Positions 20,348-62,819 of a stretch of DNA of 64,000 nt are shown piece after piece; the first letter of the stretch is position 1, and each line of letters starts with the position of its first letter. Source of the stretch: Heterotrichella gracilis (Eukaryota > Sar > Xanthophyceae > Tribonematales > Xanthonemataceae); the NCBI GenBank assembly GCA_032358255.1, contig JAULBX010013319.1, forward strand, positions 1 to 64,000. Reading direction: 5' to 3'. Position numbers and translations under genes: made by a program. The notes under the pieces are model-generated. The model searched no databases. It saw only the letters and a list, made by a program, of their open reading frames with translations, and was not told the origin of the DNA.

Positions 20348-23300
20348 TCATTGCTTCCCCTTCTTCACCACCACATCCACGTACTCCCCCTGCACCCCGT
20401 ACCCACTCCCCAGAAACGCAGCCGCCTCTTTTCCGAGGTTCCCCATCATGTGGATCTCCTTCCCCGCCTCCTGCTTCCCCGGGAGCTTCTGCACACTGCA
20501 GGAGGTCTGGAATTTGCGCTGCAGGGCAGTGGCAAGCTCGTCGGGGTCTATGGAGAACGCCTCCATGTGGGCAAGTTTTGTGACGTGCTTGCGCCCCCCC
20601 TGGCGGTCCTCGGTGTTGATGGTGATGGGGCGCAGGGTGCCTTTTTTGATGACCTCCACGGGGCCCTGCGGGGTGGTAGGGGGTGGAAGAGGGTTTTAGG
20701 TGTGCATGTGGAGTGCTGATGCGGCCGCAATGTCAGGGTAGCCTTTCGTTTGTCAAATAAAAGTAAAATAAAATAATCTTCATTTCTACCCTCCTACTGG
20801 TGTTGTGTAATTGCCATTCATGCAGACCCAGAGCCTGTTACTTCATCACTTTTTCCCCCGCCGCCCACCTGTGCCGTGGTGCGCCGCACGCACATGAACA
20901 GCTGCAGCTCGTCCCTCGAATGTGACTCTAAATCCTCCCGCGGACACACAACCCCTTCCCCCGGCGCCCCGGCTGATCAAACAGCCACCTTCCCACCGCT
21001 TCCATTGCAGCAAATGACTACCGTATTCCATTCCCATATCTTTTTATATGAAGACATTCCCACCTCACCCACCTGTGGAGTGGTGCGCCGCACGCGCGTG
21101 AACAGCTGCAGCTTATCCCTCAACCTGGACTCCAAATCCGGCCGCGGGTGCGCATCCCCCTCCCCCTGCGGCTCCTTCTTGTTGAACAGGTGGCCCACCA
21201 GCAGGCGGTCGAGGAGGAACACCGACGAGGAGGGGGTTGACAGCAGGCGGTTGGCGGCCCCATAGTCGGCCAGTGCGGCCGCCACCTCATCTGCGGTGTA
21301 GTACTCGCGCCTGGGCACCCTGCAGGGGGAGGATTTGCAAGAACAAAATAGTTAATGGCTTTCTTTTTTCCGTGTTGTTATTGTTCTTAGGTGGCCCATT
21401 AGCATTGGCGTTTCAGAAATCATTTCAACACCGGCGAGGAGGGGGTGGAGAGCAGGCGGTTGGCGACCCCATAGGCGGCCAGCGCGGCCGCCACCTCGTC
21501 CGCGGTGTAGTACTCGCGCCTGGGCACCCTGCAAGGGGAGGAGTGCAAGAATCAAATTGTTAGATGCCTGTGAAGATTTGGTATCTTTGTAATGTCCGGT
21601 GTTTCACCAGCAGGCGGTCGAGCTTTCAGCAGGTGCGTTGCAAAATTAAGGTAGCCACCAGGTAATTGCAATATTTGAACCCCAGATTCAAAATCCGCTG
21701 CCATTGCACTCACCCTTCAAAGATGGGCTTGAGCGAGGAGCATGCCGCCACCTCCATGTGACCCACACCCCCTGCTCCCGAGCTGCTAACCCCAACCCCC
21801 TCCCCTCATTCCTACGCCGAAATGCCCCCCCTTCATACGCATATTGCGCTATACTCACCCTTCAAAGATGGGCTCGAGTGAGGAGGGCACCCGGTAGCAT
21901 GCCGTCACCTCCATGTGACCACAACCCCTGCACCAGAGCTGCTAACCCCACCCCCCACCCCTCATTCCTACGCCGAATTGCCCCTCATTCTAATGCATAT
22001 TACGCTATACTCACCCTTCAAAGATGGGCTTGAGCGAGGAGGGCACCCGGTAGCACGCCGTCACCTCCATGTGACCCACACACCCTGCACCCGAGCTGGT
22101 GGCGCCACCGCCATCACGCGCATCGGCGGCGAAGGTGGCTGCGCCTCCCTCTCCAAAGACAGACGCCCACTGCAGTTTACACACATATAGCTCTTTATAA
22201 CAACCTAAAATACAAAACTCTGCTGCTACAATAAACTGCCCATCGTGCAATAAATCTATATAAATTGTAAACAACATTTTTTGTACATACATACATTTTC
22301 ATATTGCAGTTCATATAACAAACATACACATTTACATTCTTGCATGGATTCCTATGTGACACCCCTGGTTGTGCACCACCTTCTGCTTGACAACCCAAAA
22401 CCCAACTATGGCCACGCAGCACCATGCCCGCGCAGCACCTTGCAACCTAACAATAGTATACGCCCCCAAAAACCTGACTCACCGGTTGCTGCTCTGGGTC
22501 AAACCCCGCAAAGTTTGACAAGTTTAGGGTTTAGGGTTTAGGGTTTCAATTGCCACGTGGGTTCTGGATAGGGCTGTCCCAATGCCAACCGCAACATGCG
22601 CCACCTTCTGCTTGACAACATCCCCCTTCCCAAAACCAACAGCGACCATGCACCATGCACCATGCCCGCGCAGCACCACGCAGCCCAACCAAAGCACCAT
22701 CCTTCATTTCCCACTCACGGGTTGCTGCTCCGGGTCGAACCCCGCCAGCAGCTCGTGCTGCCTGTTCACGTGCGACAGCCTCTTCTGCTTGTGCACCACT
22801 TACCATCTCAAGACACCCTTCATATCAGATACTGCTGTGCACCACTATAGCATGCACCCGACACGCGCAACCTCCCGTCCAAGTATCGCAACCCCACTCA
22901 CCGGTTGCTGCTCCGGGTCGAACCCCACAAGCAGCTCATGCTGCCTGTTGACGTGCGACAGCCTCTCCTGCTTGTGCACCACCTTCTGCTTCAGAACCCC
23001 CTTCTTCTCAAAGGTGGCCAGCAGCTTGGACAGCTTCTTGTAGGAGGAGCGCTTGATGTCCAAGGTGATGCCTGGGAAAAGCGTGGGTGTGTATGTGGTT
23101 ACAATTGTGGTTGTGGTTGCAAGTTGCGGTGTGGGGATGTGTGGGTGTGGGGGAGGGTGGTTAATCAGTGCCCCAGTCACAATAGTGACTGGGGCAGGGT
23201 GAGGCTGGGAGTGGTTGTAGTGGTGGCCAGCAGCTTGGATAGCTTCTTGTAGGAGGAGCGCTTGATGTCCAAGGTGATGCCTGGGCAGGTGTGGGTGTGG

Positions 23301-24727
23301 GTGTGGGTGTGGGTGTGGGTGTGGGTGTGGGTGTGGGTGTGGGTGTGGGTGTAGGTGTGGGCATGGGCGCGGGTGTGGTGTGTCAGAGATTTACAAAGAT
23401 TGCTGCCATTCCTCTTTTAGTACGCCTGTTGAGTAAGGAATTGTATACCATTTTTATGAAAATTCCATTAAATTCACTTGTCACACCCACCTGCAGGCTT
23501 GGACGCCAGCATGCACTTTGAGTAGAAGTCACTGGTGAGCATGGGCAGCTCCGCATCCTGCACCCGCAGCAGCCCAGCCAGCAAGATGTACTCCATCGCC
23601 TGGTCCATGTCGAAATCTGGCGCGGTGCCCCCTGCATCTGCCTCCATTTGTTCATCAGGCGCGGTGTCATGTGCTGCTGATGCGCTGGGTGTGTTGGATG
23701 GTGCGTCGCTGACATCTAGCTGCTCTAGTTGCTGCTCGAGGGTGGTATCTGAGCCACTTTCAGCGGCTGCAGCGGCCGCCAGACGTTGCTGGGCAGCTGC
23801 AAATGCAGCCTCGTCCTGCATGCGGCATGGCCGGTGGATTGGTAATGGGATGGAATAGATGTGGGGGTGGGGTGGGTCATGGTGCAGCGGTAAGCAAATC
23901 GGGTGGTCAGGAAATGAGTTTGGAAAATGGCTTTTTTGGGCATCGCGATGGGCACTGCTTGGACAAACAGTGGGTATTGCAATCCGTTGCGTGAAGGTTG
24001 CACAGGCACGCTCTTATCGCCCATAGCCCACAGCAAGTCGCTACACTGGTGCAGGTTGAGTCTCATGCTCTAAACCCTACTAGGGTTTACAAACCCTCCC
24101 CTTTTGGAAAACTCGCCCTAAACCCTAAACCCAAACCCTTACCATGGAGTACACCCGCTCCGGTGTGAAAGTTGCATCCGGCACGCTCTTATCGCCCATA
24201 GCCCACAGCAGGTCGCCATAGTGGTGCAGGTTCCTCACACCCTTGCCCTTCATGCCCTGGAATGCCACCCCTGCTGTGCTGATCTCCATGGTCCCCACGG
24301 CGATCGGGTACGGGTTGTTGGGGATCCCCACTGCCCTCACGTCGCCCACTGCATACTTGCCAAGCCCTGTGTCTGGTACAATCACTCCCTGCAGGAAGAG
24401 GTCTGCACCTCCCAGGATCTTTGGGCTGACCTCTGAGAAAGTGTACAACGTGGTGGCCATTTTTGGAAATATCCAGAGAGTGTAGACTGTAGGAAGACAA
24501 TTGCCTCGGCCATCTGGGTCGAAGAAGAGGGGGTTGCCGCCGTCGACGGTGTACACCACAGCCTTGTTGCTAAGCTTGAGCAGGGAAACAGTTGCCTTTG
24601 GTGGAAACAGGCGTTTCAGGTCGTCCTCGGATAACGGGTAGGCGTCTGAAAGGTCTTTCTTGAGCTTTTTGACGTCCTTGCCGGACAGGAGGTGCGTGCT
24701 GAGCGTGCTGAGGTGTTTCTTGAACAT
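20348..24727 (-). CDS. EIF2D: eIF2D / ligatin (translation initiation and recycling factor)
   Basis: Six exons on the minus strand: 24727-24143, 23815-23491, 23071-22902, 22169-22015, 21319-21073, 20665-20348. Phases are consistent and the total is 1800 nt, giving 599 residues. The N-terminus MFKKHLSTL with a following KKLKKDL segment is the ligatin pre-PUA region. LPTVYTLWIFP and GGADLFLQGVIVP mark the PUA domain. Exons 2 and 3 carry the conserved MEYILLAGLLR..ELPMLTSDF and LDIKRSSYKKLSKLL region. Exon 5 is SWIB/MDM2-like (EYYTADEVAAALADYG, FLLDRLLVGHLF). Exon 6 is a SUI1 domain (LRPITINTEDRQGGRKHVTK, ending YVDVVVKKGKQ). The protein promotes GTP-independent Met-tRNA delivery and recycling of 40S subunits in the cytosol. 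The start matches the family (MF-K/A-K). It is divergent from the QCR10-like gene 523 bp away. Five of six exons have partial copies in flanking introns. Confidence 0.95.
20865..20945 (-). repeat. Echo of eIF2D exon 5 donor side
   Basis: Copies the end of exon 5 (real version at about 21071-21155), including CCCACCTGTG, the reverse complement of the exon end plus donor GTGGG. Shared segments are GTGGTGCGCCGCACGC and GTGAACAGCTGCAGCT-like. It lies downstream of the exon in gene sense. Confidence 0.85.
21435..21541 (-). repeat. Echo of eIF2D exon 5 acceptor side
   Basis: Near-identical to 21225-21331: GCGGTGTAGTACTCGCGCCT, then GGGCACCCTGCA, so it includes the acceptor. It lies upstream of the exon in gene sense and could act as an alternative 3' splice site. 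Confidence 0.9.
21706..21960 (-). repeat. Two echoes of eIF2D exon 4 donor side
   Basis: Copies at about 21710-21800 and 21855-21960 repeat the end of the real exon 4 at 22010-22110 (ACTCACCCTTCAAAGATGGG, then a GAGCGAGGAG-like segment). All three include the donor, so the intron has three candidate 5' splice sites about 150 bp apart. Confidence 0.9.
22340..22812 (-). repeat. Several echoes of eIF2D exon 3 donor side
   Basis: Copies of the exon 3 end (real version at 22895-22995) occur at 22711-22803 (very close), 22477-22510 (ACTCACCGGTTGCTGCTCTG, followed by TTTAGGG repeats at 22521-22548), about 22595-22625 and about 22365-22400 (the GTGCACCACCTTCTGCTT part). The copies are nested and of different ages. 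Confidence 0.85.
23221..23289 (-). repeat. Echo of eIF2D exon 3 acceptor side
   Basis: Matches 23010-23076 with about one mismatch across GGTGGCCAGCAGCTTGGA, CTTCTTGTAGGAGGAGCG and TTGATGTCCAAGGTGATGCC, including the acceptor. Followed directly by the GTGGGT microsatellite. Confidence 0.92.
23289..23352. repeat. (GTGGGT)n microsatellite
   Basis: About ten tandem copies of GTGGGT in eIF2D intron 2, on the plus strand. Confidence 0.95.
23973..24139 (-). repeat. Echo of eIF2D exon 1 donor side plus telomere-like run
   Basis: 23980-24060 repeats the end of exon 1 (TTATCGCCCATAGCCCACAG, then CAGGTTGAG for CAGGTTCCT). Between echo and exon, 24064-24139 is largely CCCTAAA-type DNA, so in gene sense the intron begins GTAAGGGTTTGGGTTTAGGG directly at the donor. 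Confidence 0.9.
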
Positions 24728-25647: not shown

Positions 25648-25928
25648 TTTTTGCGCTTTTGATATCGAGCCTGACAATAAAGGACATAAACCCTAAAGGA
25701 CAGTTTACTCCCTGAAACTGATGATGTATTGCCTGTAACAAACTCTTCGATACCCAACACCAGTGTCCTGTGCATAGCCCAAACCCCAGGGTTGGGTGGA
25801 CTGGGTTACCCACATCCCACGTTTTACACACATTCCTACTTGCTATGTGACCTTGCTGCAAGGTGCAGATATTACATAGAGCATTTCATGGTTGCACTTG
25901 TCAACAATATTCGGGTGCTCGCAACGCA

Positions 25929-28403: not shown

Positions 28404-28469
28404 TGGCTGCACAAGGTAAGGAAAAGGCTGCACCAATTGCATAGACCCTGTACCGAAACCCTGAAACCC

Positions 28470-28530: not shown

Positions 28531-28684
28531 CTAGGCTGCACCACTCACGCGGGTCTGTGCACTGCATGCCATTCATATGACGAGTTATTGGCCGGTTCAC
28601 AAGTAGAATCCTAGACCCTAAACCCCAAACCTAGTCTTAAGCATTGGCTAGTGCCGCCACCGACAGCGCACATGCACGTCATAT

Positions 28685-30540
28685 TCAACCGCATGCAGTG
28701 GTGTCAATCGTCCCGGTGTGGGTGTAAATTGATTCACCCCCAAAATCGCGCATGGCCTCTGTCATCTCAGTGTCGTCGGCTCGCCCAAGGAAATTGAGGT
28801 CGATGGCTGGGTGGCCCTGGAGGGCGGTGGGCCAGAACTCGTTCTGGGTGGTAGCACGCCGGATCTTTTCCAGCGCAATGTTCAGCACCTGCAAAGCATT
28901 GGCATAGATTGTCATTCCTTGCCTTGCCCTCTATAGTTGCGTGGGCGTATCACGGAGCTCGCTAATGATGCGTGCCAGGCTGAATAGTGCATGTCTGAAT
29001 ATGCATCGTTTGCACACTAGACCCTGTTTGATGAGTTCAGACCCTGCGCCTCGCTGTTGTACATCAATCGCGCTGGAGGTCCCATGTGGGCCCATCCAAT
29101 AACCCTAAATCCTAAACCCTGAATAGTTCTGACCCTGCGCCTCACCGTTTTCTTCCTTTCGCGCTGGAGGTCCCACGTGGACCCGTTCTTGAGGCTGCGC
29201 ACTTGCTGGTGGAGCTGCCCCTCCAACAGCAACTTGGAGGTGGTGCCAGTGTTGAGCGTAACCCTAAGGGTTTGGCCACCAAGCGCAATGCCCACTTGCT
29301 TACTCGTCACTCCTGCTGGCATCTGCAGGGTCAAGGGAAGGTCAACAGCTGGTGCTCAAGCGGTGTTTGGGGTTTCAATTGGTGCTGCAACTGGGGGGAA
29401 AGGGTCAAGTATCGCATGTTTTGGAGGCAGAGTCGTAGAGGTGGAGTCATGTCCGGCAACAAGCCCATGGAGCTGATGGAACCATGCAATGCCATCAGGT
29501 GCCCACTTGGCTTTGCCTGGCGCGCAAAACACCACTCCGAGCTAGGAATGTGGCTTGCCCGGCAAGGTCGCTTCGTCAGGGTGTAATTGTTGTACGGTTT
29601 CCAGCCTTCATATGCATGGCAGGCAGTACATGGGCGCTGCATGCATTGGCAGGTGCCCGCGTGACTGGTGACTGGAGATTATCAAGCAGTAGCCATGATC
29701 ATACCTCATAGGCCAAGGCCTGGATTAGGGTTTAGGGTTCTGCATACCTCCAGTGAGATGATGACCTCGGTGGAGGTTTGCGCCCATGTGTACCCTGGCC
29801 CGCTGCTGCCACCGTCCACTGGCGTGCGCAAGGTGGTGAAGGAGGCTGGCTCGGACCAACTGAACAGCAGCACACAGGAGAATATAATTTTGCAGTGCAT
29901 GCCATATGGCACGTGCACGTCAACAGTGGTGACCAGTGTCCTGCATGTCCGACAATGGTTTGTAGTCGTGGGCGCCAAAGGCTGCCATGGTGGCTGACCA
30001 GGTTGTCATTTTTTGGGGCACAGCCTGGCCCCCAATTTTCCATTTCTATGACGCACGCGTAAGTACTGCAATACACAAGAGCCAGCCAGCACCGCACCCT
30101 TACCCGCTGCTTCCGTTCTCGTTGGTGGCCCTGCACTTTACCAAGTAGCGCTGCCCTGGCTTCACCTCGATTACATATACTCCCTCTCCCATCTTCTTCA
30201 CCCTGCGGCAGCACAGGAAGTAGTGGGTGACCTGCTGGTTTTGCCCTTAAAGCTGAGAATAGCGAGGATGCACAGCCTTACAAACCCACCCGCTTCGCTC
30301 CCATTTCCTTGTCAATCCAAAACCATCGACGGCATACTGGAACTCTACAGTGCTGCCTGCTGCTGCCAGCTCTGCTGCCCTGGGTACCTTCATAAAAGCC
30401 TACAACAACGCAGCAGCATGGCTTGGATGGTCCTTGTGTGGACCGTCAGCTGATATGGGCAAGAAAGCCAAAGAGAATAATGACTGACCTGGAAACTAGT
30501 GACGTTGCCTACCAGAAACACTGGTGCTTCTCCTGGTTTC
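28685..30540 (-). CDS. Protein combining an FN3-like and a CS (NudC/p23-like) domain, partial at 5' end
   Basis: Exons on the minus strand: 30540-30489, 30231-30104, 29859-29748, 29322-29146, 28888-28685 (stop). All are in phase. The N-terminal part reads as a fibronectin type III domain: VYVIEVKPGQRYLVKCRATN, then ENGSSGWSEPASFTTL. It is followed by a CS domain: YTWAQTSTEVIISLEMPAGV, a LLLEGQLHQQV segment, STWDLQRERKKTVLNIALEK, matching the W.Q...EV.I...P.GV..K.V core and the GEL...V...S.W motif of NudC and p23 proteins. The C-terminal tail (NEFWPTALQGHPAIDLNFLG...) resembles the region after CS in NudC-like co-chaperones. The role is probably HSP90/HSP70-associated co-chaperone in cytosol. 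FN3 before CS is unusual. Upstream exons beyond 30540 were not resolved. Confidence 0.7.
29035..29125 (-). repeat. Echo of CS-domain exon donor side with telomere-like run
   Basis: 29040-29095 (GACCCTGCGCCTC, CGCGCTGGAGGTCCCA, TGTGGGCCC) copies the exon end at 29130-29190. The two are separated by ATAACCCTAAATCCTAAACC. Confidence 0.85.
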
Positions 30541-31503: not shown

Positions 31504-34500
31504 ATGAGGCGCCTTACGCGGCCGCCTTCACAGAAGTACGGGTCGCCTCTGTTCGGTGTGGGCTGGCCACAGGGCGACTATGTGATCGTAGCTGGCGGAG
31601 GTGGATCAGCGCGGTCTGGCATCGCCAACAGGTGAGACCCACATCGCATATGCATGCATATCGAGGGAACCGAGTAAAGCCCTCCAGACTCCTGACCCTG
31701 CTTTACTGCACAGTCTGCAACGTGGGCCACTGTATGGATATAATTTACTTGCATATCGACCCATTTTGGGTGAGGAGCCTCCAACCCCACTGCTGTAGGG
31801 CAATGATAACCAAGGCACAGCATGGGAAGCTAGTCGAGGATGTGATTGCTGACCTCCACTTCGGACTGGACTGCCCAATGAAGCTCACAGTGCACCCCAC
31901 CAAGCCACAGCTGCTGTTTATCATGTCCAGCGGCAAGGTCAATGGAGCAGAGCTGGTTGGGGGGAGCACTTCCACACCTCAGCTGCAAGACCGCTCACGT
32001 GCGTCCTACCCTAAACCATCCATCCTGAACCCTAACCACAGTAGGGTTAAAGCTTGGAAACGGCTCGGCCTGTAGGGCACTGTGTGCACAAAAAGCCTGG
32101 GAAATGCACAAGGTCATCCCGGTGAAGGGCTAAACCCTAAACCCTAACCGTTGCCACTATGTGCACCCAGAAACATGGGATCTGCACAAGATCATCCCGG
32201 TGAAGGGCCAAACCCTACACCCTGACCCTTAACACTATGTGTGGGCAGAAACGTGGGAGCTGCACAAGATCATCCTCAGGAAGGGCGAGACCCTAAACCC
32301 TAACCCTGGCCACTCTGCGCAGGAGCATTGGAGCTGCACAACATCATACCCGTGAAGGGTCAATCCTAAACCACTAAAGCTCAACCCCTAAACCCTTGCC
32401 ACCCTGTGTGCGCAGAAACGTGGGACCTGCACAAGATCATCCCTGTGAAGGGCTACAAGGTGGCAAGCTTCAGCCATGATGGGCGGCTGCTGGCGCTTGG
32501 GGCTGAGGATGGGTCTGTGGACATCTACTCCTGGTCTGCGGGCCTGCCGCGGATGGTGGCACAGATCCCCAGGTAGGTACCTAGGTTTCTCAGCCTAGGG
32601 ATTAGGGTTTAGAAACCCTAACCGCTGCACAGCCACGCCTTGTTGAATCAAATTTCCAGAACACAGCTGGCCGTGTCCCTTCAGTTACAGGACGGGTGGT
32701 CGTGCGTCCTAAGGGTTCCTCAGTATGCAAACCTGAGGCAACCTAAATTTATGCACTCAAGCCGGGCCCACCATCCTCCTCGGATGTTGAATGCTCATGG
32801 TGTACGCGCAGTGGCGAGGCAGGCAACAAGGCCGCTGTAAAAGACCTGGATTTCAGCGAACGCCACGGCAACAACCGCATCATTGCAGTAGTGTGCGATG
32901 ATGGCTCCTGCGCCTGGTGGCATTGGCAGGCGGGGCTGAAACTGGCGGATCTGGCACTACCAACAGGTGGGTGCTAGGCTATTGGCGCAGCAATTCGGAA
33001 GCGCATTGGTTGGAAAGCAACATGTGTGTCGTTCAGCTGAAGCTGTGTGCATAAATATTGCATCGGTGTCACTCATGACTCCAGTAAACCATCCATTGCT
33101 GCGAGTGGTGGCATTGGCAGGCGGGGTTCAGGCTGACGCTACCAGCAGGTGGGGTTGTCGGTCTACAGGAACGGCGTAGATAATTGAGAGTGCGATCAGG
33201 AAATCCCCTAACCGTGACCCACAGGTTCCGGCCATGAACCATGCTATGTAGCTTTCCATGTGCTGGGTTTTGTCCATGCCACAGCCAAACTTGTTGTGCA
33301 TCAAATCTGCCACGATCAAACAACTCCCATTATGTCCTGCCTGCAGACATGAAGCGGGGGTCCTTCAACCGCTGCCGCTTCGCTCGCGATGGGAGCATGG
33401 CCTTTTTCACAGTCATCAACCCCATGGGCACAACCATTCTGCGTGGTTTTTAAACCACCCAACCATTTCCCCTGTCCTAAATGGCCAAATACCAAATGGC
33501 ACCTCCTCAGCATCCTAAAAGTCACGCAATCTTGCCTTCAGACATGAAGCGTGGTCTTTTTAACCGCCGTTGCGCGCGACGGCAGCATGGCCTCCTACAC
33601 AGTCATCAACCACATTGCACCAATATCTTCGAGTTTTTCTTACTACAAAATATCTTTTTCCTACCCAACGGCACCTCCCAGATGCTAAATACCACACTAC
33701 AATGAGCAACGCGTGTTGCCTGCAGACATGAAGCGGGGGTCTTTCAACCGCTGCCGCTTCGCGCGCGACGGCAGCATGGCCTTCTACACAGTCATCAACT
33801 CCATGGGCACGGGCCACATCGTGCACTGGGAGCAGAACCCTGAGGGTTTGGTGGTGTCCAGGCGGAAAGTCAAGGCGGCCGACGGCAACATCACCTGCTT
33901 TGAGATCAGCCCCTCGGGCAAGTTTCTGGCGGCGGGCGATTCGGAAGGTGCGCCCGTGGGCTGGGGTACCATCTGGTACAGCCACTCATGAGCATGGCAC
34001 AACAACTGCATAACCAAATCTTATCAAAGTCATGGCACAATTGTGACGCAAAATATCGCCGGAAGGAGAAAGGGCTATGCAATACCCCAGTGCAGGGTGT
34101 CAACAAATCTATGGCGCAGGCAGGCGCCCCCCTCATCATTGGGGTACCCAGCCTGGCGATCCTGAAGCTTGTCAGCGGGGCGCACATGGTTGAGCATGGC
34201 AGCCACCGTGTCAGAATGCATGCCGCGCACAGTGCCACCCACCCCACAACCAAGAAACCAGCTTGCACATCTTATTTACCCTAGTGCAGGGTTTCACGAA
34301 ACCCCATTGTGTGCGCAGGCGGCCAGCTGATCATCGCCGCACCCAGCCTGGCAATCCTGAAGCGGGTGAGCGGCGCGCACATGGTGTTTGCCACCGCCAT
34401 CGCCTTCTCCCCCGACGAAAAGCGGGTGGTGTCTGTCTCAGCCGACGCCAGCGCCCTGGTGACAAGCCTCAGGGAGGAGAGCAGCAGTAAAGGGGAGGGG

Positions 34501-36019: not shown

Positions 36020-38840
36020 TCACAGCAGGGCTGCGATGTCCTTCTCAATATCTGCTGGTGTGGTGGTGGATGGGTACCTACGTGCGGAGAAGGGTTTAGG
36101 TTTTAGGATTTAGGGTTTCATGTGGTGGTGGGTGGGCACCTACAGCCGGCTAGGTATCATCACTCTCATTGCAGTGACAGGAAACTGCAGCGGGCAGTAA
36201 CATTCTGACTACATTGCCGCATAAAGTGCAAGGCAGTTTAGGGTTTACTCCTGCGCTGCTGCCAAAGCTGCAACATGCCCGGCTGCTCTGCTTTTGCCGA
36301 TACGCCTCTTGACCACATTGCCTGCTTTGTCCACCTGGAATTTGCTTTCACGGCTTGTGACTTAGGGTTTATGATTTAGGGTTTACATATTAGGGTTTAT
36401 GACTTAGGGTTTAGGGTTTTGGTTCCTCACCAGATACGCCTCTTGACCACATTGCCTCCCTTGTCCACCAGGAACTTGTTTCATAGCTTGTGACTAGGGT
36501 TTATGACTTAGGGTTTAGGGTTTTGGTTNNNNNNNNNNNNNNNNNNNNNNNNNNNNNNNNNNNNNNNNNNNNNNNNNNNNNNNNNNNNNNNNNNNNNNNN
36601 NNNNNNNNNNNNNNNNNNNNNNNNNNNNTATGACTTAGGGTTTAGGGTTTTGGTTCCTCACCTCTTGACCACGTTGCCTTCCTTGTCCACCAGGAACTTG
36701 TTTCACAGCTTGTGCCTTAGGATTTATGACTTAGGGTTTAAGGTTTTGGTTCCTCACCTCTTGACCACATTGCCTTCCTTGTCAACCAGGAACTTTGTGA
36801 AGTTCCACTTGATGTCGTTGGTCAGCAGGCCACCCGCCTTGTTCTTAAGGTACTCAAACACAGGCTCGGCTGCAGAAAAGAAAGGGATTGTTTTTGTAAA
36901 ACAGGTAGAAAAATGGAAGTACGCAGCATGGACGTCAGGTAGTCAAATAGAGGCTAAGAAAAAATGGTTTCTGCTGCATACGAGCCACTCATGCCAACAC
37001 CCTAAACCCTAACCTTCAGGTACTCAGACACAGGCTCAGCTACAAACAGATCCATGTGCACATAAGCAAACCAACATGCATATACGAGGTCACATGCAAG
37101 CTCCTGCAAGCTGTGGGGTATGCACCGTTGCTGTCCCACCACATGCACGCCTTGACCACAGACTTCCTTCAATTATGTACGTGCCCAATGCATATTGCCT
37201 TGACCACAGACTTCCTTCAGTTATGCGCGTGACCATTGCATAGTGCCTTGCAAGAATCGGCAGCCTGATACCAGCAAGTTCATGGCTCTACCAGGTGTAC
37301 AAGGGTCAATCCACCGCCCGTGCAAGCTGCATGATTTACCACTGCCACGTGTATTCACATATAGCCTTTGCTGGCGATGGCTGACCCTAAACCCCAAAAC
37401 CCTAGAATAAAACTCACCGCTGCCGCCGTTCACGTCCAGCTTTGCCGTCAGTGGAAACTTGGCCCCCAGCTTCTGTGCAATCCAAACCTTGACCCTAAAA
37501 CATCTCCTGTGCACAGGCCTTGACGTCCCTGTTGCTCCCAGCCTCCTTTTGTGCAAAGAAGTTGGTGTCCCTAACAGCAAACCCTAGAACCCTACTCCTG
37601 AAACCCTGTGCTTACCGCTGCCGCCATTCACGTCCAGCTTTGCTGTCAGTGGGAACGTGGCCCCCATCTTCTGCGCAAAGGACTTGATGTCCCTGTTGCT
37701 GCCTGGCTCCTGGGCGCCAAACTGGTTGCAGGGCGCACCCAGCACCACCAGGCCCTTGTTGTTGTAGGTGTTGTACAACTGAGCCAGGCCCTGTGGGATT
37801 CAAACCACGCGATTACAAGATGAGAGGATAGCGAGAAAGAGGCAAGCCAGATGGGCGCGGCGTGCCCAGGATGCTACGGTAGAGTGTGCGGCAATAGCTG
37901 GGGTCAGGTGTATGCCAGGGCGCACCAAGCACTACTAGGTCCTTGTTGTTGTAGGTGTTGTACATTTGAGCCAGACCCTGTGGAGCCAAGCCAAGCGATT
38001 ATAAGGATAACGTTGTAAGAATAACAATAACAATGACTTTCATATTGAAGAGCACCCGCCGCGGCAACATGCCGGGGCCAAATGCTTAAACAGCCCTGGG
38101 ATGACTTGGTAGAATGATTCCAGATGGGCGCAGCATGCCCAGGATACTAGGAACTGTATAGGGTGCGGCAGTGGCTGGGATCAGGCGGGTGTCAGGGTGC
38201 ACCCAGCAGCACCAGCCCCTTGCTGTTCTAGGTGTTGTGCAACTGAGCCTGAGCCTGTTGAGTGATGTCTACGTTCCTCCTGGTTTAAGCCACTTCTTCA
38301 CCGAGTAAGGGTGCACTTAGGTACTTAGGCTCCCCAGTACTGCGTGCACAGTGTGGGTGGTCCTTGGGTGCAGGAGGGTGGGTTGGGCCCTCCAACTAGC
38401 AAGGCCTGCTTTGAGACCTCAAGGCTATGCACTGAGCCTCAAACTGTGTAAAGAACCCATAGCAACCCCTTACTGACCTTGTACTGAGGCGTGAAGCCAC
38501 ACTGCGAGGCCACGTTCACCACCAGGACCACCTTGTTCTTGAACTGCTCAGTCTTGAGCGTCTTGCCATCGATGTCCTTGACAGCAAAGTCGTAGAACGT
38601 CTTGGGCTCCGAGCTTGCGTTGGCAGTCCCGAAGAAAGCCATCGTCTGCACGTGGCTCCTGCTGAGCTTAGCTGGAGTAGCAGACTTGGTGAAGGCAAGG
38701 CGTGGTGACGCCCTGCCGATGGCAGCTACCGAGCAGAGTGACCTCGCTGGCGAGGCTACCGAGCTGCCCACGTGGCTCCTGGTGCTGCACAAGCGGGTTG
38801 AGGCCACAACTGTGCCCAGGCGGACGTTCACGGTCTGCAT
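36020..38840 (-). CDS. GPX: Glutathione peroxidase (plant-type, cysteine form) with transit peptide
   Basis: Four exons on the minus strand: 38840-38478, 37790-37616, 36869-36758, 36077-36020. Phases agree, 235 residues. The first 70 residues or so are Ser/Arg/Ala-rich (SARSL- and RASPRLAF-like), typical of a plastid or mitochondrial presequence. The peroxidase core has [80 protein letters not shown] and a C-terminal IEKDIAALL. The catalytic position is Cys (TGT), with Gln (in AQEPG) and Trp/Asn (KWNF) completing the active site. The second thiol expected of thioredoxin-dependent plant enzymes is in PCNQF. It reduces lipid hydroperoxides, probably with thioredoxin. It is divergent from MRE11. 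The gene is full of exon echoes, and the assembly gap lies in intron 3. Confidence 0.95.
36085..36757 (-). repeat. Tandem array in GPX intron 3: exon 3 donor echoes alternating with TTTAGGG runs
   Basis: Units near 36295-36355, 36432-36490 and 36652-36712 each contain CTCTTGACCACATTGCCT, TTGTCCACCAGGAACTTG and CTTGTGACTTAGG, followed by TTTATGACTTAGGGTTTAGG. They copy the end of exon 3 with its CCTCAC donor complement (real at 36752-36800). A copy of the exon 4 start sits at 36117-36150. The repeat probably continues through the N gap. Confidence 0.92.
36529..36628. other. Assembly gap (100 N)
   Basis: Exactly 100 N, a conventional placeholder of unknown true length. It is flanked on both sides by the same TTTAGGGTTTTGGTT / TTATGACTTAGGGTTTAG unit, so it is a collapsed or unresolved part of the tandem array. 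Confidence 0.98.
37400..37570 (-). repeat. Echo of GPX exon 2 donor side
   Basis: 37416-37480 (CTCACCGCTGCCGCCGTTCA, CGTCCAGCTTTGCCGTCAGT) copies 37612-37670. A further internal piece (CTTGACGTCCCTGTTGCTCC) is at 37518-37540. Telomere-like ACCCTAAACC sits at both borders. Confidence 0.9.
37870..38262 (-). repeat. Two echoes of GPX exon 2 acceptor side
   Basis: 37910-37985 and 38185-38260 repeat the segment GGCGCACCCAGCACCACCAG, CTTGTTGTTGTAGGTGTTGT, then TGAGCCAGGCCCTGTGG of the real exon (37730-37795), each with the acceptor. Confidence 0.9.
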
Positions 38841-42500: not shown

Positions 42501-45500
42501 AGTGCTCCGACCCCAGCTGCCCCTTCTCCATCATCCAGCCCGGCTCAAGCGTGGCCACCGCCCTGTCGGAGGGCGAGGCCAAGCGCAAAAACGTGGTGAT
42601 GCTGGAGGTGATGGGCGACAAGTGGCGCTGCGTGACGCTGCCGCTGACCAGCGTGCGGCCCTTTGAGTATGACAGCGTGGCGCTGGGGGAGCAGCATGAG
42701 CTGCAGCCGGAGGATGCAGAGGTAAGCGGGGGAGTAGTGTGCAGTGGGTAGGAATTTTACTGTGGTAATTTGAAGTGTCCTTGTTGGGTGTGTTTTTGAG
42801 GCAATTGGGCGATGGATTGTGTTTGTGGGGCGGCTTTTGGGATCAGGGTTTAGTTGGGGTGTTTCGGGGTGGTTTTGAGGTGCGGGTGGGATGCATTTTG
42901 GCATGTAACGCTGCATTTCACCCCACATCGGCATATGTCAGAAATAATATGTGCTTCCCCAGGGGGTCACCGATTTCCTGGAGACCAAGGTGGAAGGCAT
43001 GATTAGGCGAGCGGGGGGGTCAAACCCGGGAGCCCCCCCTGGACAAGCGCCCATGCTGCCACTCATCAGGCTCAAAGTGGACTACACAGGCGAGTCACAA
43101 CCCTAATCCTAAACCCTAAATTCATACCTGTTGCCGTTCACCAGGCTAGTTTTGAGTTCAAACCCTAAAGGGTTTGATTGTCCAGGACTGGGATCTGGGG
43201 AGTAGAGCCCTGGGGATGGGTTTGGCGTTTCTGCCCTTGCAAATTTTCTTCCCTTTCCTCCCTTAGAACCCAGCAACCAAATTGCTTCAAAACTTATAAT
43301 TTGATACGTATCATTCCTATCCCCCCTCCCAGGCTTCTCCACCATTAATGCGCAGCGATTTGGGCAGCGCTTTGTGGGCAAGGTGGCTAACCCCACTGAC
43401 ATACTGCTGTGGCAGAAGGCAGCGGCGCGCAAAGCCAAGGTGGGGGTGCAGGGTTTAGGGTTTGGGTGTGGGTTGGGGGTTTAGGGATTAGGGTTTGCGG
43501 AAACGGTGGCCAACCCCACTGACATTGCTGTGGCAGAAGGCAGCGGGCGCGCAAGGCCAAGGTGCGTATGATTTTGGGTTGTGTTTTTCATGCTTCCAGA
43601 AATTGGGCACCTGCACCTGAGTAGGAACCCTGCATTACACGCCTTGTTATTTTCCCTTCCATTCCCTGTTCTGTTTTTCATTGTTGACCGAGGCCCCCAG
43701 GGGGATGTTCCCGGGGAGGCTGATCAGCTGATTGAAGCTTTGGACAAATTCAAGATTGAGGACTTCATCAACAAGCATTTGCAACCAATGTTTTTTAAAT
43801 ATCCACCCGTGCACATCCATGTGCCGTTTGCTCCCAAGTTTAAACACCTCCCATTTTTTTCCTTCATTTTTTCCGTCTTTTTTGCAGCCCGAGGCCCCCA
43901 TGGGGACGGTCCCCGGGGAGCTGATCCGCCCCGAAGCGCTGGATGAGTCCAAGATTGAGGACCTGATCGCGCAGCACCTGCACCAGAACCTGGAGATCCT
44001 TCCAGAAAACGAGCTGGGTACCGCGCTGCATAACTTTGTGGAGAAGGACGACAAGCAAGCCCTGGCCACATGCGTGCAAGGTACGGTCCCATTCACTCAA
44101 AGCTCGAATACTTTTTGTGTATCCAAAATGAAAGGACTTGATAGCACATCACCTGCACGGGAATGTGAAACGTTGCCAATAGATGAGCTGGGCACCGCGC
44201 TGCATCATGTTATGAAGAAGGACGACAAGCAAGCACTGGCCACATGAGTGCAAGGTGAAGGCTGACAGTAACCAAGATGGAACCGCAACTTCATGAAACA
44301 AAATTGATAATGAATGAGTATGCAATCGAGGACTTGATGCGCAACATCTGCACCAGAATTAGGGATTCTGCTGATGAGTCCATGTTACAGGTATTCTGAA
44401 GGGAAGCGCACAACCTAACACCCTACACGCCAAACCCTAAAACCAGGCACTGCCCTAACAGGAATCCTGAATGCAACTTGACATCTTCAATAAATTTTTG
44501 TCCCCCTTGTATACAGGCATTCTGAAGGAGACCCAGGAGGCTGCTGGAGCTGACGAGCGCACCCAGGCCATTGAGCCAATGGGCTACACATAATTGTTAT
44601 GTGGCTTTTGGCTTTTTAACCTTTTTGGGTTCAGTGAGATGCAAGAGGCAGCATGTATATGCAACTTGTTGTCCCCATTTTATACAGGCATCCTGAAGGA
44701 AACTCAGGAGGCCGCTGGAGCTGACGAGCGCACCCAGGTCATTGAGCGGGAGGACGATGTGGGCACAGTGTTGAGTTCGCACCTGCAACAGAGGAAGGCG
44801 CAGCAGGTGGGTGGGGGCTGGCTGTGGTGGTGGCGTGGTGGTGGTGGTGGTGGTAGTGGGGATGGTGGTGGAGTGGGTGTTGGGTGGGGGGGGTACGCTA
44901 CGCCAGCGTAACATAAATGAAGGGAGGAGATCAGAAGAATACACGACGTTGGCACTGTTCTCAACTCACACCTGCAGCAGAGGGCGGCGCAGCAGGTGAG
45001 TGGTGGTGGTGGTGGTGGTGGTGATGGTGGTGGTTGTGGGTGGTGGCGGCGTTGATGGTGGTGGTGGTGGTGGTGGTGGTGGTGGTGGGTGGTGGCTCGG
45101 AGGCGATGGAGTGGGTGTTGGTGCCGGGACGATACCTTAGTCCAACGGAAATGGTAGAAAATGTGATGTGGGGACTGTGCTTAGGTCGCACCTGCTGCAG
45201 AGGTGGAGGGTGCAGCAGGTGGGTGGCGGTGGCGATGGGGGTGATGACAGGTGGTGGTGTAGGGGGAGCCTGCAGGGGGAGAAATTGCTCGCTCTACCAC
45301 CGCGCCTATCCAAGGACAGGCTGCGCAGTTACTCATGTGTCTCATTCAACATTTCTGTAGGATGTCCAGGCCGCCATGCGGCGCGCTCAAGACATCAATC
45401 TGTCTGAGGTGGCGCCCTCTGACATGGCAGGGGGGGAGAGCATGGAGATGGATGGGGAGGGACCATCCACCTCGCACACGCCGGCAGCTGGTGCGGTTGT

Positions 45501-49519: not shown

Positions 49520-51932
49520 GTTCTTACCCTTTTCGTGCTCATCCTCCTTGTGCTCGATGTTACGTGGATCGTCAATGACTTGATGTCAGAGCCCCAGCTG
49601 CCAGAAATTAAGACAGAGGATGATGCTGATGACATAGGGACAGTGTTTGTAAGTCGTTCGGACCCTGGTCCCTACATGGATATCTAGTTGTGTGCACGCT
49701 GGGGCCAGCACATGGCGGTTGTATTTTCCTGTCTCTAGCACTGCCCTGCAGCTGAGTTTAAGGTCCACTTACAAATGAACGCAGTAATTTGTAAGAAATC
49801 GAATCTAGTCATTTTTGCTAATCTTGCACATGTATGGCTACGCCGCCAAGCGGTCCTGCCACTGTCTACGCCATTTGTTGATCCTGCACAACCCAAGAGC
49901 TCTTCCAGGTCACACCAGGCCATGTAGGCCATGTAGGGCATGTAAGCCATGTTGTATTAGGTTCACTTGCCCCCCTTGCCCCTTGGTCCCTACCTAGTAG
50001 CGCACGCTGCGTTTTGCATGGACTCCAATTTTTTGTTGGGAAACAACAAAAAGCTAAGCTAATAGAACACTCGCATACATTGTATTGGGTAACAATACCA
50101 GCTTATGCTTCCTTGGTGTTTATGGACCCTAAACCCAGCAGCTGAGCCATCTGCTGCTCCTGCGCTGCCTGAGAAACTTTTTAAGAGGATCTGTGGCGGT
50201 CAGACGATGTGATGTCAATTCATACTATTCATACTTGATTTGGGTGTACTGTGTGCAGGTGGATGTGCTCCAAAGGGGCGTGGTCATCGACACCGTGAGC
50301 TTGGACCTGGTGGACATGGTGCAATAAAAAATGATTTAATACATTATCTGAAAACATGCTCATTCCCATTTGAGTCAGAAAATTTAATGATTTAAATTAT
50401 TATTTGTTTCTAAAAGCAATATTGTATTTTAAACTTTCCAATCTACATGGAACCATGATCTTTACAAGTACTGTATTTGACATAATTTTACAGTTGAAGA
50501 GGAAGCATAAAAGCTTTGTATGTTTCAGGTGGATGTGCTCCGAAGGGGTGTGGTCATCGACACCGTGGGCTTGGACCTGGTGGACTTGGTGGAAGTCATT
50601 GGGAACAAGTGGAGTGGCCTGTTCCAGCACGTGCTGCATCAGCTGGAGCCTGACCTGCCTGAGCTGGCACCAGAAGACGTCCTGAGGCTGGAACTGGAGT
50701 ATGCCAATGGCACCATCGAGGCGCTGGACAAGGTCAAAGACATGCAGGTAGGGTAGGTAGGTAGGTAGTGCAGGTCCCCTGACTGATTGTCCATATAGGC
50801 TATGCGCAATTGCAATGCCGCCTCTCCCACGCCTTTAGGATTTGAAGGTACCTGTCAGTACGTAGTGACACCTGCCAGATCTGAGAGATTTCTGCTGAAT
50901 TGATTAACAATTCGATCTTGCTATATATATTTATATTTACATTCATATGTACATTTAATTTTACTATTTACTACTTCTATTCATATTTACATTTAATACT
51001 TACAATAAATGCTTTTTTTTGTTTCGGGTGGACAGTGCGCTGCGCGAAGTCAGCAGCATCCGGGTGACGGTGGCGGACGGGTATGTGTGCCGCACACCTA
51101 GCACACCCCAGGTCATTGTGGAGGAGGGCCCAAGCCTGGAGCTGGTGTACCGCAATGGTCGCACCATCAGCATGCGCAAGCTCCGGCACAAGTACACGGA
51201 TAGGGTGCTGCGGGGGGTCGAAGCCATCAATGTCATTCTGACATCAGCGCGGTATGTGAACCCTAACTCCACACCCTAGAACCTACGCGGTACGTGTACC
51301 TCATCAATGATGGCAAGATGCGTAGGGTTTAAAAACAATAGATCCTGCACGTTTGGACCGCAGAAAACTCTTAAGTTGCAAACCCTTAAACATACACCTA
51401 TGGTAATATATAACCATTGTTGAGGGCCGCACTGTCACCATGCGCAAGCTGCGGCACAAGTTTATGAGCAGGGTGCTGCGGGGGGTCCAAACAATGTGGG
51501 TCATGCTGCCAGCAACACGGTATGTGTGGCGTATGCCGCAAGGCGTCTAGGGTTTAGGGCCCTGGCATAAAGTCTAGAACCTAAACCCTGTATCCTGAGC
51601 ATAAATAGCATGAATCCACAGGGAGTGTACAGGGTACAGGGTTCATGGCGTGACCCCACAAGGTTAGCCATAAACCCTTGTTTAGGGTTGTGCAGGGCGT
51701 GATGCAATCGTGGCGCGCAACTTCTTCAGGATCAAGCCAATTCTTGTGCCTCATGCTGTGGCGGTGTCTTGCATTGTTTTAATTGGTTCAGATTGCAAAC
51801 AGCCAATTACAGCATGCATATGTTTGGTGGCTGATTCCTATTCCAAACGCACATGGTGACTGACGTCCACTTGTTGTGTGACACAGGGATAGCGCGGGAA
51901 ATGGACATGGACATGGAGGGAATGGAGCCTGA
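49520..51932 (+). CDS. Unidentified membrane-anchored protein, 3' exons
   Basis: Exons 49520-49648, 50529-50747, 51028-51251 and 51887-51932 (stop TGA), in consistent phase. The first encodes a membrane span (VLTLFVLILLVLDVTWIV) and an acidic segment (PEIKTEDDADDIGTVF). The second encodes RRGVVIDTVGLDLVDLVEVI, then a leucine-rich helical part ending ALDKVKDMQ. The third has SIRVTVADGYVCRTPSTPQV and LVYRNGRTISMRKLRHKY; the last is Gly/His-rich. No family recognised. An upstream exon candidate at 48880-49061 (ALCEVTQGLARLAEKEKFFF) may belong. The acceptor before 51028 reads TTTCGG rather than TTTCAG. Exons 2 and 3 have echoes at 50261-50325 and 51414-51530. Confidence 0.5.
50255..50335 (+). repeat. 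Echo of exon 50529 acceptor side
   Basis: CAGGTGGATGTGCTCCAAAG, then GGCGTGGTCATCGACACCGT copies 50526-50590. The acceptor is intact; the copy then reaches a TAA after GTGCAA, so use of it would truncate the protein. Confidence 0.92.
51255..51535 (+). repeat. Echo of exon 51028-51251 donor side
   Basis: 51416-51530 repeats CGCACTGTCACCATGCGCAA, GCTGCGGCACAAGTTTATGA and GTGCTGCGGGGGGTCCAA, ending in CACGGTATGTG like the real donor CGCGGTATGTG. Telomere-like runs follow both versions. Confidence 0.92.
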
Positions 51933-56148: not shown

Positions 56149-56775
<627 letters not shown>

Positions 56776-58934: not shown

Positions 58935-59040
58935 CTACCCGCAGTGCGCCATCTTGCCCAGTATGGCGGCATCCAGCAGCAGGCACACAGCGCTGTCCAC
59001 CAGCCAGGGTTCAGGTTTCTGGGTTTAGGGTTTAGGTTTA
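58935..59040 (-). repeat. Echo of the last PQ-loop transporter exon, downstream of its stop
   Basis: 58955-59012 (CAGTATGGCGGCATCCAGCA, then GCACACAGCGCTGTCCACCA) copies 59080-59130. It is followed by TTTAGGGTTTAGG at 59022-59037. Confidence 0.92.
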
Positions 59041-59053
59041 CCTCCCCTGCCCC

Positions 59054-62000
59054 CTACCTGTAGTGCGCCATCTGTCCCAGTATGGCGGCATCCAGCAGCA
59101 GGCACACAGCGCTGTCCACCAGCCAGGGCAGATTGGGCAGCAGGCGGTGCCACAGCAGGCTCCTGTGCGGGGCGGGAGGTGGGGGATTGTGGAAATGGGC
59201 ACACATGCTTGAGGTCATGCGCTGCTGGGATGGGTGAGTATGGTGAGTGTGCACCTGTCCTTGTGTACCATGCAAACACAGTCCCTGTGCCATCATGTGA
59301 TGGTATACTCCAGTGATGGTAGACTCCAAAATGTATCGTTACAACACTGGGATTCCTCGCAGAGCACTGCTGCAATGCAAAACCAGCCCACAAAGCGCAG
59401 GACAAGTCAAAATATCCTCTGTGGTACATACACACTCCTTGCTAGGTTTATTAGGGTTTTCAGTCCGCTGTGGTAAATACACACTCCTTGCTAGGGTTTT
59501 TAGGGTTTTCACCTGACAAGGATGGACCCCAGGTAGGTCCCATTGCCCAGCACTGCACACACAAACATTGCGCCTGACAGGCCGCGCGTGGTTCCCCTCC
59601 GGATGTTTTTCAGGATCTGCGGCACCCTCCCGAACAGGAACAGCACAGTCATGCTCCATCCGATGCAGAAGCCCCACATCTCTGCACCTGCAGGGGCGAA
59701 AGGGTTGCGACTGTTTTGCGTGTGCATGCTGCTCTGCGTGTGCATGCTGTTTTGCGTGTGCACACTCAAATCTGCTCGATTTGCAGTATGGCGGGCCACT
59801 TGCATGCAGGTTGTGCCCACAAGGCTTGCACAGCACATTTACAGATTCTTGAATGCAAGGGAGCACAAGTGCAGTCATGCTCCAGCCAATGCAGAAGCCC
59901 CAGATCTCGGCGCCTGCAGGGATGGGAAGGGTTTACAGTTAGGGTTAGGCTGCACAAACCCTAAACCCTGAACCTATCCAGGAGCCCCACAACTTGGCGC
60001 GTGCAGGGGGTGAGAAGTGGCTGGTTTGTATGCACTCTGAACAACTTTGCACACGTGCATGTGCATTGCTGATTGCCATGTCAAAGAGGAGTAGGGTTTT
60101 GGGTCCACCTGTGTCAAATGGGAAGTGCGTGTTGAGCAGCCTGCGAGAATGGTGCCACATGCCGCTGCCACCTGTCACCCGCCATTGCACCTCCATCGGC
60201 TGCTGGCCAGATGCCCCACCCACCTCCAACCCTGCCAGGCGCCGTGCACTGCCCACTGCCAGAGGGCCAATTCCCGCCTGGCCTGGTTGCAAAACAGGTG
60301 AGGATTCTGACACTGAGGATAATGTGCGGCCCCATGTTTCAATTGGATGTGCTCCTCCCCTTGTACCCGAGGCCTGCCCCCGCCACATCACTTGAGAATG
60401 GCTAGCTCCCTGTGGCATAGAATAAACAGCTAAATGAATATACGATTAGATTTGTTTTACGGAGATATGTAATGGATGTAAGTGTTAAACATTTTAATGA
60501 CCAAGTACAGTGCCGCCTCATCTCAAGGTACAAGGGCATTAGTTCAGGAATATTTTGGGCAAGAACTAAATGAGGCAGTCTCAGAGGACTCCTCACTTAC
60601 CCCTCACATGTCCTCACATGTCCTTGCCATTACCTGTGGCGCAAGGCAGAGCACCGAGCCTGTAGTGACCGCCAGCGCCAGCATGATCACCACCACAAAG
60701 GGGGTAAACCCCAAGGAGGTTGCAGCAGAGGGCTGCATGGAGGTAGCACCGGACTCCACCGCACTGCCATCCACTGGCACACCCTCCCCTACCCCACGTG
60801 CTGAGGCCTCGCCAGCTGGCACATCCCCATTGGCTGCTGACGCGCCATTTGCCAGCATTTCATTGGAATGCAAGGTGCTGACCACTTCACTGGGGCTCAG
60901 CTGCTGCACAGCAGTGGCCTCGTAGTATAGGTCGTATGGCGGGCCCAGGCGGCGCACAGGCTGGGGTCTGGAGGCGCCTGCATGGGCATGCGCACAAGTA
61001 AATACCCCAGAAAACGAGTGGAAAATAAAATAACGAATAATACTGCTATATCGCTCTGGGAATCTGGCTGTACTGCTGGCGCGCATGTAAGTATAGGAAA
61101 ACCAAAAGAAAACAATGAATTGAAATGACTGAACAAACGTAACAGGGCCTAATTTTGGAATTGGCATAGAGTACAAGGCAGGAGGGCAAAATCCACATCA
61201 ATTGCCATCTTGTCCACTCCTTCCCCAACCATGTACCTGTGTGGTCGTCGTGGCTGGTGGTTTTGCGTGGCGCAGGCGCATGTGTAGGGGTGAGAATGAT
61301 TATTATGTATACATACGTAGAAGTCAAGACAGATGGGATGGGAAAGGCAAGGCCTGTCTGACAGGCTTGAAAACGAAAGCTGCTTCAGAAAAAAAGATCC
61401 CAGCAGAATGGACAGGCACTGCCCTCCTATCCGCTGTATCCTACCCTACATGTACCTGTGTGGACATCATGGCTGGTGTTTTCGCGTGGCGCATGTGTAC
61501 GGGTGAGAATGGGCGGTGGGTGTCTGAACCATGCGGTGATGAGGGCCCCGCTGTGTGCGCTGCTGTCTGCCGATGATGGCAGCAGGGGCTCAGAGGGTGC
61601 GTAGGGGAGCTTGTTGCACCGCTGCAAAACGCAGGGGAGTAAGTTAGATGCGGTGGATTTTGTGGGGAGGGGGGTACATCTCGTGCTTTTATGTATACAC
61701 CCTATAGCTATAGCGCAGATGCAGGGGCGAGATTGGGTGGTGGGCGGGTGACGCATGCAGTGATAACGACAGAGGGGGCTCAGAGGACGGGTAGGTGTAA
61801 CGCTGAGTACATGGCAACGGAAGGAGGGTAGATAGGGTATCTCAAAATGCAGTGGGGGACCGGGGTGGCACCAATTTCTACAAGTGGCAACCCACCGCAG
61901 CGTGCATAATTTGCAGCTCCACCGCTGCAAACCCCCAGATTTTGCACAAGCTACAGCCCACCCGCACTACCCGCATTGCGCCTGCACCCCTCACCCTCCT

Positions 62001-62819
62001 CCTGCTGAGCCTCTTGAGCGGCTGGTACCAGTTGTAGTAGATGTGCTGCGCGTCCAGAGCCAGGGTGACCAGGGTGTACAGCACTGCACTCCACAGCTGC
62101 ATGGGGAGCTGCGCACCAGGGCAGTGCATCTGCTCAGTTGCTCCGCTCAGATGCTAGACTTTATATAGGCTATTACGAACAAACAAACTTTAGGCTAGTA
62201 CACCAATCTGCCAGTGGCTGTACGCAGTCTGCAGGAACGCATGTAACTTGGTGACCAGGTATCATATTATCAGCACTACTGGGCTGGCATATTGGGTGCA
62301 GGTGCTCTGCACGGCATGTTACCAGCGCATATTGCTTCTGCTTTGCTTGCAAACTATGCAATTACTTCCATGCAAATTTTGTAACCATTACAGGTCCTGC
62401 AGTGCAGGTGCTGTGCATGCATGACGCCAACAATATACTGTGAACATCTGATTCTGCCTGACATGCAGCCTAGCTGCAAGTGACTTTAACTCACATGCTG
62501 TAGTCATATCCTAGAACTTGTGAACTTGTGATGCTTTTGCATCTAGCCACAGGACACTCACCACATCAGCGATGATGCACCCAACCACATTCAGCAGGTC
62601 TCCAGCAGTCCAGGTGAGCAGCATAATCCCTGACACAGCCTGAGAGGAGTGGCTGGACCAGTTTGTCACTACCTGGGGAACCTCTGCCACTGCCCATGCT
62701 GTAATGGAAACCAGGCCCATGAAAAAGGAGACAGCATCACGCTTGGTGCACACACAGTCGTCAAAGACGTCTTCAGCCCAGCGCCAGCAGCCCTCTGGAC
62801 AGCTGCTGGGATCTAACAT
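59054..62819 (-). CDS. PQ-loop vacuolar/lysosomal cationic amino-acid transporter (PQLC2/Ypq-like)
   Basis: Exons on the minus strand: 62819-62562, 62096-61995, 61621-61456, 60977-60634, one unresolved small exon, then 59687-59513 and 59162-59054 (stop TAG). The start MLDPSSCPEGCWRWAEDVFD matches the family opening. The first PQ motif is ITAWAVAEVPQVVTNW with SSQAVSGIMLLTWTAGDLLN. The second is FLFGRVPQILKNIRRGTTRG with LSGAMFVCAVLGNGTYLGSI. Further membrane helices are LWSAVLYTLVTLALDAQHIY, FTPFVVVIMLALAVTTGSVL and WLVDSAVCLLLDAAIL. A long Ser/Ala/Glu loop lies between the PQ halves, as in yeast Ypq and LAAT-1 proteins. It exports basic amino acids from the vacuole or lysosome. Echoes of exons lie at 61225-61290, 61710-61800, 59868-59935 and 59965-60015. 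Confidence 0.8.
59860..60020 (-). repeat. Two echoes of the PQ-loop exon (59513-59687) acceptor side
   Basis: 59874-59922 (AGTCATGCTCCAGCCAATGC, then AGAAGCCCCAGATCTC) and 59976-60008 (AGGAGCCCCACAACTT) copy 59647-59695 with the CTGCAG acceptor. CCCTAAACCCTGAACC lies between them. Confidence 0.9.
61215..61300 (-). repeat. Echo of PQ-loop exon 3 donor side
   Basis: GTACCTGTGTGGTCGTCGTG, then GGCTGGTGGTTTTGCGTGGC and GTGAGAATG copies 61452-61512 (GTACCTGTGTGGACATCATG...). A second, weaker copy of the acceptor-side part is at 61715-61800. Confidence 0.88.

Follow-up and report, generated by a model that had tools for sequence, protein, structure and literature searches.

Introns in the stretch of DNA analysed here, a window of 64,000 nucleotides (positions 1-64000 of contig C135, from a genome of 68.5 Mb in 903 contigs), hold partial copies of the edges of the exons that they adjoin. 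Such a copy of an exon edge inside the adjacent intron is referred to below as an echo. The copies are real, genome-wide and far above chance, and the pattern they form is one of duplication spanning splice junctions, with an unexpected association with telomere repeats and an unexplained excess of synonymous differences. Our favoured reading, to which we give a probability of about 0.5, is that small junction-spanning duplications arise frequently from the repair of staggered breaks with fill-in and lengthen the introns.

Abundance and placement of exon-edge copies

The window was chosen for its oddity, and therefore 20 stretches of 10 kb picked by a fixed rule (contigs 7, 22, ... 292; bases 20001-30000) were added as a control sample, giving 264 kb in total, the scope of all counts of pairs, exon edges and telomere repeats that follow. 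Exons were modelled with a self-trained gene finder, the penalties of which were raised after a first run gave many false micro-exons. It predicted 494 exons, 326 of which (at least 40 nt long, score at least 5) were used in the edge tests. Homologous proteins back the main exons of MRE11 and eIF2D only, those of the sample being predictions, and several exon copies were themselves called exons by the gene finder.

Comparison of the window with itself (E≤1e-3) resulted in 46 pairs, 44 direct and 2 inverted, with 43 of the 44 direct pairs lying less than 1 kb apart. The sample stretches contained 85 direct and 11 inverted local pairs, and at least one direct local pair was present in 17 of the 20. 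One of the three stretches without such a pair, L012 (C127:20001-30000), has 38% guanine plus cytosine (GC), no predicted exons and no echoes; it may be bacterial in character, and the assembly may hold contaminant contigs. A predicted splice site was covered by 86 of the 134 local direct pairs, and the other copy was on the intron side in 85 of these and only on the other side in one, so that duplications with the splice junction inside the unit and the second copy intron-side stand at 85 versus 1 of 134. Circular shifts (300 in all) served as the null for splice-site placement; their means were 47 covering pairs, 31 intron-side and 16 other-side, and none of the 300 reached 86 or 85. Taken separately, 59 of 84 direct pairs in the sample covered a splice site (59 intron-side, 0 other), as did 27 of 50 in the window (26 intron-side, 1 other).

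A second test compared each exon edge with its own intron, using as threshold the 99.5th percentile of length-matched other introns; 14 of 343 introns (with N, or more than 900 long) were left out, leaving 329. Upstream exon ends exceeded the threshold in 47 of the 329 (reverse complement 2) and downstream exon heads in 44 (reverse complement 3), with 1.6 expected in each case. An earlier note on the window, made from its letters, had proposed such a check of introns against their exons, and its outcome favours the echoes. Altogether 82 of the 329 predicted introns, about 1 in 4, carry an echo (21/71 in the window, 61/258 in the sample). The note's central claim of a process acting across many unrelated genes beyond chance is borne out, and the high density it remarked upon extends beyond the window (61/258 introns and 59/84 pairs in the sample). 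Among the nine genes it had named, pairs were found in eIF2D, the FN3-like gene, the SEC12-like gene, GPX, MRE11, the 50-kb gene and the PQ-loop gene, and none at E≤1e-3 in RecX and the kinase. The identity of echoes ranges from near 100% to about 70%, the same spread from near-identical to decayed that had been described, the copies are mostly 100-300 bp apart, and 16 of 84 sites have two or three echoes.

Echoes of upstream exon ends lie mostly in the donor half of the intron (median relative position 0.29) and those of downstream exon heads mostly in the acceptor half (0.67), in agreement with the earlier observation of donor copies downstream and acceptor copies upstream. The opposite splice site was abutted (within 6 nt) by 3 of 47 and 3 of 44 echoes, 6 of 91 in total. 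This placement fits duplication across an existing splice junction, which would lengthen an intron and create none.

The earlier note also held that each copy offers a competing splice site. Among echoes aligned to within 6 nt of the edge this is true for the 23 of 31 that kept GT and the 25 of 37 that kept AG, and fails for the remainder; another count of GT and AG retention (40/51 and 50/52) was skewed by the requirement that alignments include the site, and was not used. Scored with a matrix, echo sites exceeded the 10th percentile of real sites at 29 of 41 donors and 37 of 43 acceptors. In direct comparison the real site scored higher at 23 donors and 29 acceptors, and the echo at 10 and 12, respectively. 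Were the echo site spliced instead, a frameshift or an added stop would result in 82 of 84 cases.

Telomere repeats in echo introns

Seven contigs (C70, C140, C526, C609, C717, C770 and C824) have CCCTAAA arrays starting within their first seven bases, and TTTAGGG was therefore taken as the telomere repeat of the genome. Its occurrence at the ends of copies had been missed in the earlier note. TTTAGGG or CCCTAAA was found 246 times, versus 49 expected from a third-order Markov model, with densities per kb of 0.03 in coding sequence, 0.54 in other noncoding sequence, 1.25 in echo-free introns and 2.6 in echo introns; spacers between copies had 4.04 per kb (overlapping pairs counted more than once). 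Heptamers in any phase covered 5.5% of echo introns versus 2.4% of echo-free introns, a difference reached in 0 of 10,000 permutations, and a fuzzy search for telomere repeats gave 8.0% for echo introns, 3.7% for echo-free introns and 0.6% for simulated introns. Past the inner end of an echo, any-phase cover was 13.4% in the first 20 nt, 11.4% in the next 20 and 3.1% at 40-80 nt. Of 80 echoes, 20 had telomere text no more than 30 nt from the inner end; among random 30-nt windows the share with such text was 7.5% for echo-free and 15% for echo introns. At least two thirds of spacers had no telomere text or no strand excess. Telomere sequence accompanies the process without being present in every event.

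Origin of the copies

We infer a break-repair route with a role for telomere repeats. A staggered break or paired nicks would arise near an exon-intron junction, and both ends would be filled in and then joined, giving a duplicate of the junction; telomere-repeat filler would sometimes be added, or a tract of telomere repeats would form the intron-side boundary of the unit. Splicing would stay with the copy adjoining the exon body, so that the protein is unchanged, and the second copy would turn into intron and decay, leaving the intron longer by one unit. Most copies are probably dead: of 37 gaps in echoes, 35 shift the frame, and in-frame stops are present in 6 of 82 echoes. In codon tests, from which echoes shorter than 20 nt or without a frame were left out, pairs of 0.70-0.85 identity had synonymous changes at 101 of 221 single-change codons (46%), versus 40% expected if the copy is neutral and the exon next to it can change freely at synonymous sites.

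Several results weigh against this route. Plain tandem duplication predicts more intron homology than is found: the adjoining intron was clearly homologous in 38 of 79 pairs (some arrays abut directly), and in pairs at least 88% identical the median length of homology was 49 nt on the exon side of the junction versus only 11 nt within the intron. In pairs with an identity of 0.85 or more, changes were synonymous at 168 of 267 codons (63%), versus 41% expected, with shares of 54/94 where the adjoining intron was homologous and 71/100 where it was not, and a ratio of third- to first- and second-position differences of 3.1 (bootstrap 2.27-4.33). Third-position GC was 0.79 in both copies, and GC-AT changes were symmetric (77 and 80). 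Telomere strand excess was seen in only 29 of 84 spacers, and its orientation, set against our own prediction of the G-strand on the 3' overhang side of the unit, was 6 G to 9 C at acceptors and 10 G to 4 C at donors, agreeing only weakly with the fill-in model. The synonymous excess of young pairs could stem from joined alleles, from fast structural turnover of introns or from partial constraint. Mutation bias was rejected as its source, the spectrum from noncoding parts leaving the excess in place. The earlier impression that the process is ongoing is not upheld, as plain recent duplication does not predict the synonymous-biased differences of the youngest pairs.

It is conceivable, if unlikely, that random short duplications without any preference for exon edges underlie the pattern through bias of survival and detection: exonic ones would be lost, noncoding ones would fade, and those at junctions would remain recognisable, constraint preserving one of the two copies. 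So one-sided a placement (85 to 1) would be expected from purifying selection by itself, and the near-neutral older pairs (46% synonymous versus 40%) are consistent with it. However, the 28 pairs at least 88% identical comprise 16 edge-spanning, 6 noncoding and 6 other exonic pairs, whereas the shifts give expectations of 4.3, 15.2 and 8.6; slower decay of edge pairs could, by our own estimate, account for an excess of about a factor of two, and 3 of the 6 noncoding pairs come from the GPX array, close to a real exon. That duplications favour exon edges is likely, not proven. An assembly artefact, in which the joining of two diverged haplotypes or strains into a mosaic doubles exon edges, is improbable. 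The differences within young pairs are allele-like (synonymous excess, symmetric third-position changes), runs of 100 N marking scaffold gaps lie inside two arrays (window 36529-36628 and L013 9300-9399), and with 1 of 20 sampled contigs bacterial-looking the sample may be impure. Yet five genome queries (the SEC12-like exon, MRE11, eIF2D, 2.6 kb of L022 and 1.6 kb of L015; local copies and short repeats disregarded) revealed no second locus, and alleles would not fit the two or three echoes at 16 of 84 sites or the frameshifting gaps (35/37).

Retention of the copies for a function, such as the regulation of splicing by decoy or alternative exon edges, would accord with the synonymous excess in young pairs and with the many echo sites still competent by matrix score (29/41 donors, 37/43 acceptors). 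We regard it as improbable too, given that 35 of 37 gaps are frameshifting, that splicing at the echo would disrupt the reading frame in all but 2 of 84 cases and that real sites outscore echoes at 23/41 donors and 29/43 acceptors. Intron gain through duplicated exon segments that contain AGGT, the model put forward in the earlier note, is very unlikely: the duplications are partly exonic and carry GT or AG, but the opposite-site geometry that the model needs was seen in only 3/47 and 3/44 echoes, and it is unsupported because echoes mirror the nearest edge and lie mostly in the near half of the intron. We give hardly any credence to an introner or other mobile element supplying both the spacer and the long duplication. 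The spacer in L015 does include part of a dispersed repeat of ~85 bp, present genome-wide at ~40 places among the matches listed, but non-local matches within the 264 kb were found for 6 of 80 spacers, mostly telomere-like, versus 12 of 240 control pieces, and two of three spacers searched genome-wide were unique. An introner or transposon origin was rejected, the spacers having no common insert sequence.

Break repair with fill-in can be set beside several systems, described here from parts of the papers cited. In a potato RdRp gene, a tandem duplication crossing an intron-exon boundary made a new intron (PMC4974935); as here, the duplication crosses the boundary and splicing preserves the protein, whereas the potato gene is a single case with a new intron and the echoes are genome-wide and mostly lengthen existing introns. 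Intron gain by tandem duplication of AGGT (Rogers 1989, as told in PMC4974935) likewise involves tandem duplication with splice signals, although the copy in that model would lie by the opposite edge and the echoes mirror the near edge. Telomere repeats are inserted during break repair in mammals, some with duplication of the flank; duplication is the sole mark at 3 of 66 horse loci, and the share of human insertions that lie in introns (31%) agrees with chance (PMC7215372). Flank duplication is known from both systems and telomere repeats at presumed joins may be common to them, and unlike in mammals the repeats here concentrate in introns by exon copies. Pol alpha-primase guided by CST performs a double fill-in at breaks with 3' overhangs, giving small tandem duplications (PMC8355091). 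These resemble the small direct tandem duplications here and involve a telomere complex, but the evidence for them comes from Cas9 nickases in mouse and human cells, and that account, in the part drawn on, makes no link to splice sites or telomere repeats. Introners, with target-site repeats of 3-9 bp (PMC9860276), are another single process altering introns genome-wide; in contrast to them, the echoes have no common insert and the duplications are far longer than 3-9 bp. A literature search at the level of titles and the starts of abstracts found no account of a pattern such as this.

A stronger version, in which telomere machinery (telomerase, or CST with Pol alpha) handles breaks near exon borders, leaving recurrent targeted intron lengthening, telomere scraps and near-competent decoy sites, is tentative and rather doubtful. 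If true, border-targeted repair would shape the evolution of intron length and litter introns with decoy splice sites. Growth and turnover of introns are poorly visible because their traces decay; in this one genome a dense series from near-identical to worn could allow rate, breakpoints and splicing cost to be measured, and the telomere repeats at copy ends suggest a repair route open to test in the living alga. For annotation the copies are a hazard, as they look coding.

Copies and other features of the window

Protein searches gave [Myrmecia] bisecta as the best match of the MRE11 of the window (67% identical), and its eIF2D was 49% identical to Coccomyxa and Myrmecia proteins. This points to a genome near Myrmecia and Coccomyxa, that of a trebouxiophycean green alga. 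The exon-edge copies catalogued in the window are as follows.

21218..21569, minus strand: eIF2D acceptor edge at 21319, with a copy at 21427-21569.
21708..22115, minus strand: eIF2D donor edge, three tandem copies with a period of 156, found by self-comparison; the copy ending at 22015 is in the longest predicted exon, and those at 21859 and 21714 are taken as echoes. The spliced copy is only presumed, because all three match eIF2D homologues.
22710..23010, minus strand: eIF2D exon 22902-23071 with its donor at 22902, and an echo at 22710-22827 with an in-frame stop relative to homologues.
23013..23285, minus strand: eIF2D acceptor edge at 23071, with an upstream copy at 23222-23285, 98% identical.
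23991..24232, minus strand: end of the first eIF2D exon (24165-24232), with a copy at 23991-24057, 90% identical.
29029..29184, minus strand: exon edge of the FN3-like gene (29120-29184), with a copy at 29029-29093 and a CCCTAAA-like spacer.
32075..32455, plus strand: SEC12-like array with a period of 78, each unit running from an intron tail that contains CCCTAAA through AG into an exon head; the final copy is contiguous with the exon.
33338..33810, plus strand: SEC12-like acceptor edge at 33726, with echoes at 33338-33431 (93%) and 33530-33610.
34083..34385, plus strand: SEC12-like acceptor edge at 34319, with a copy at 34083-34190.
36299..36795, minus strand: GPX donor edge at 36758, with several upstream-numbered echoes and the N run 36529-36628 inside.
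37413..38262, minus strand: GPX exon 37632-37790, with a donor echo at 37413-37480 and acceptor-side echoes at 37916-38005 and 38120-38262.
40522..40817, plus strand: MRE11 donor edge at 40584, with a downstream copy at 40746-40817, 90% identical.
42288..42612, plus strand: MRE11 exon from 42500, with an upstream copy at 42288-42409; the match to homologues carries on in the downstream copy alone.
43371..43564, plus strand: MRE11 donor edge near 43439, with a copy at 43494-43564 and TTTAGGG text in the spacer.
43650..44256, plus strand: MRE11 exon 43888-44080, with an acceptor echo at 43650-43783 and a donor echo at 44133-44256.
50245..50594, plus strand: acceptor edge of the 50-kb gene at 50529, with a copy at 50245-50324, 90% identical.
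51157..51526, plus strand: donor edge of the 50-kb gene at 51251, with a copy at 51425-51526.
58935..59128, minus strand: donor edge of the PQ-loop gene at 59058, with a copy at 58935-59009, 95% identical, and a 44-nt spacer with CCCTAAA.
59646..59933, minus strand: acceptor edge of the PQ-loop gene at 59687, with a copy at 59872-59933.

Other repeats in the window include an inverted pair of ~2.1 kb (6529-8618 and 12368-14428; 95% identical, 3.75 kb apart) and a direct pair at 47616-47811 and 52803-53017, which is noncoding, 5 kb apart and 71% identical and is not an exon echo. The ~85-bp dispersed repeat, ~80% identical between places, occurs in the window at 17148-17233 and 3412-3452, at 44-125 of L004, and in L016, L019 and L014, and may be a small mobile element. 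Positions 3559-4678 encode a predicted protein, a piece of which had no match in a Pfam scan and whose internal repeats are diverged and rich in N, A, S and G; Rfam and tRNA scans of the window likewise gave no match. An in-frame TAG at 55264-55266 stands just before the kinase-like exon GEELGRGGFAMV, where the gene finder placed an intron, and the kinase-like gene at 55264 is possibly a pseudogene.

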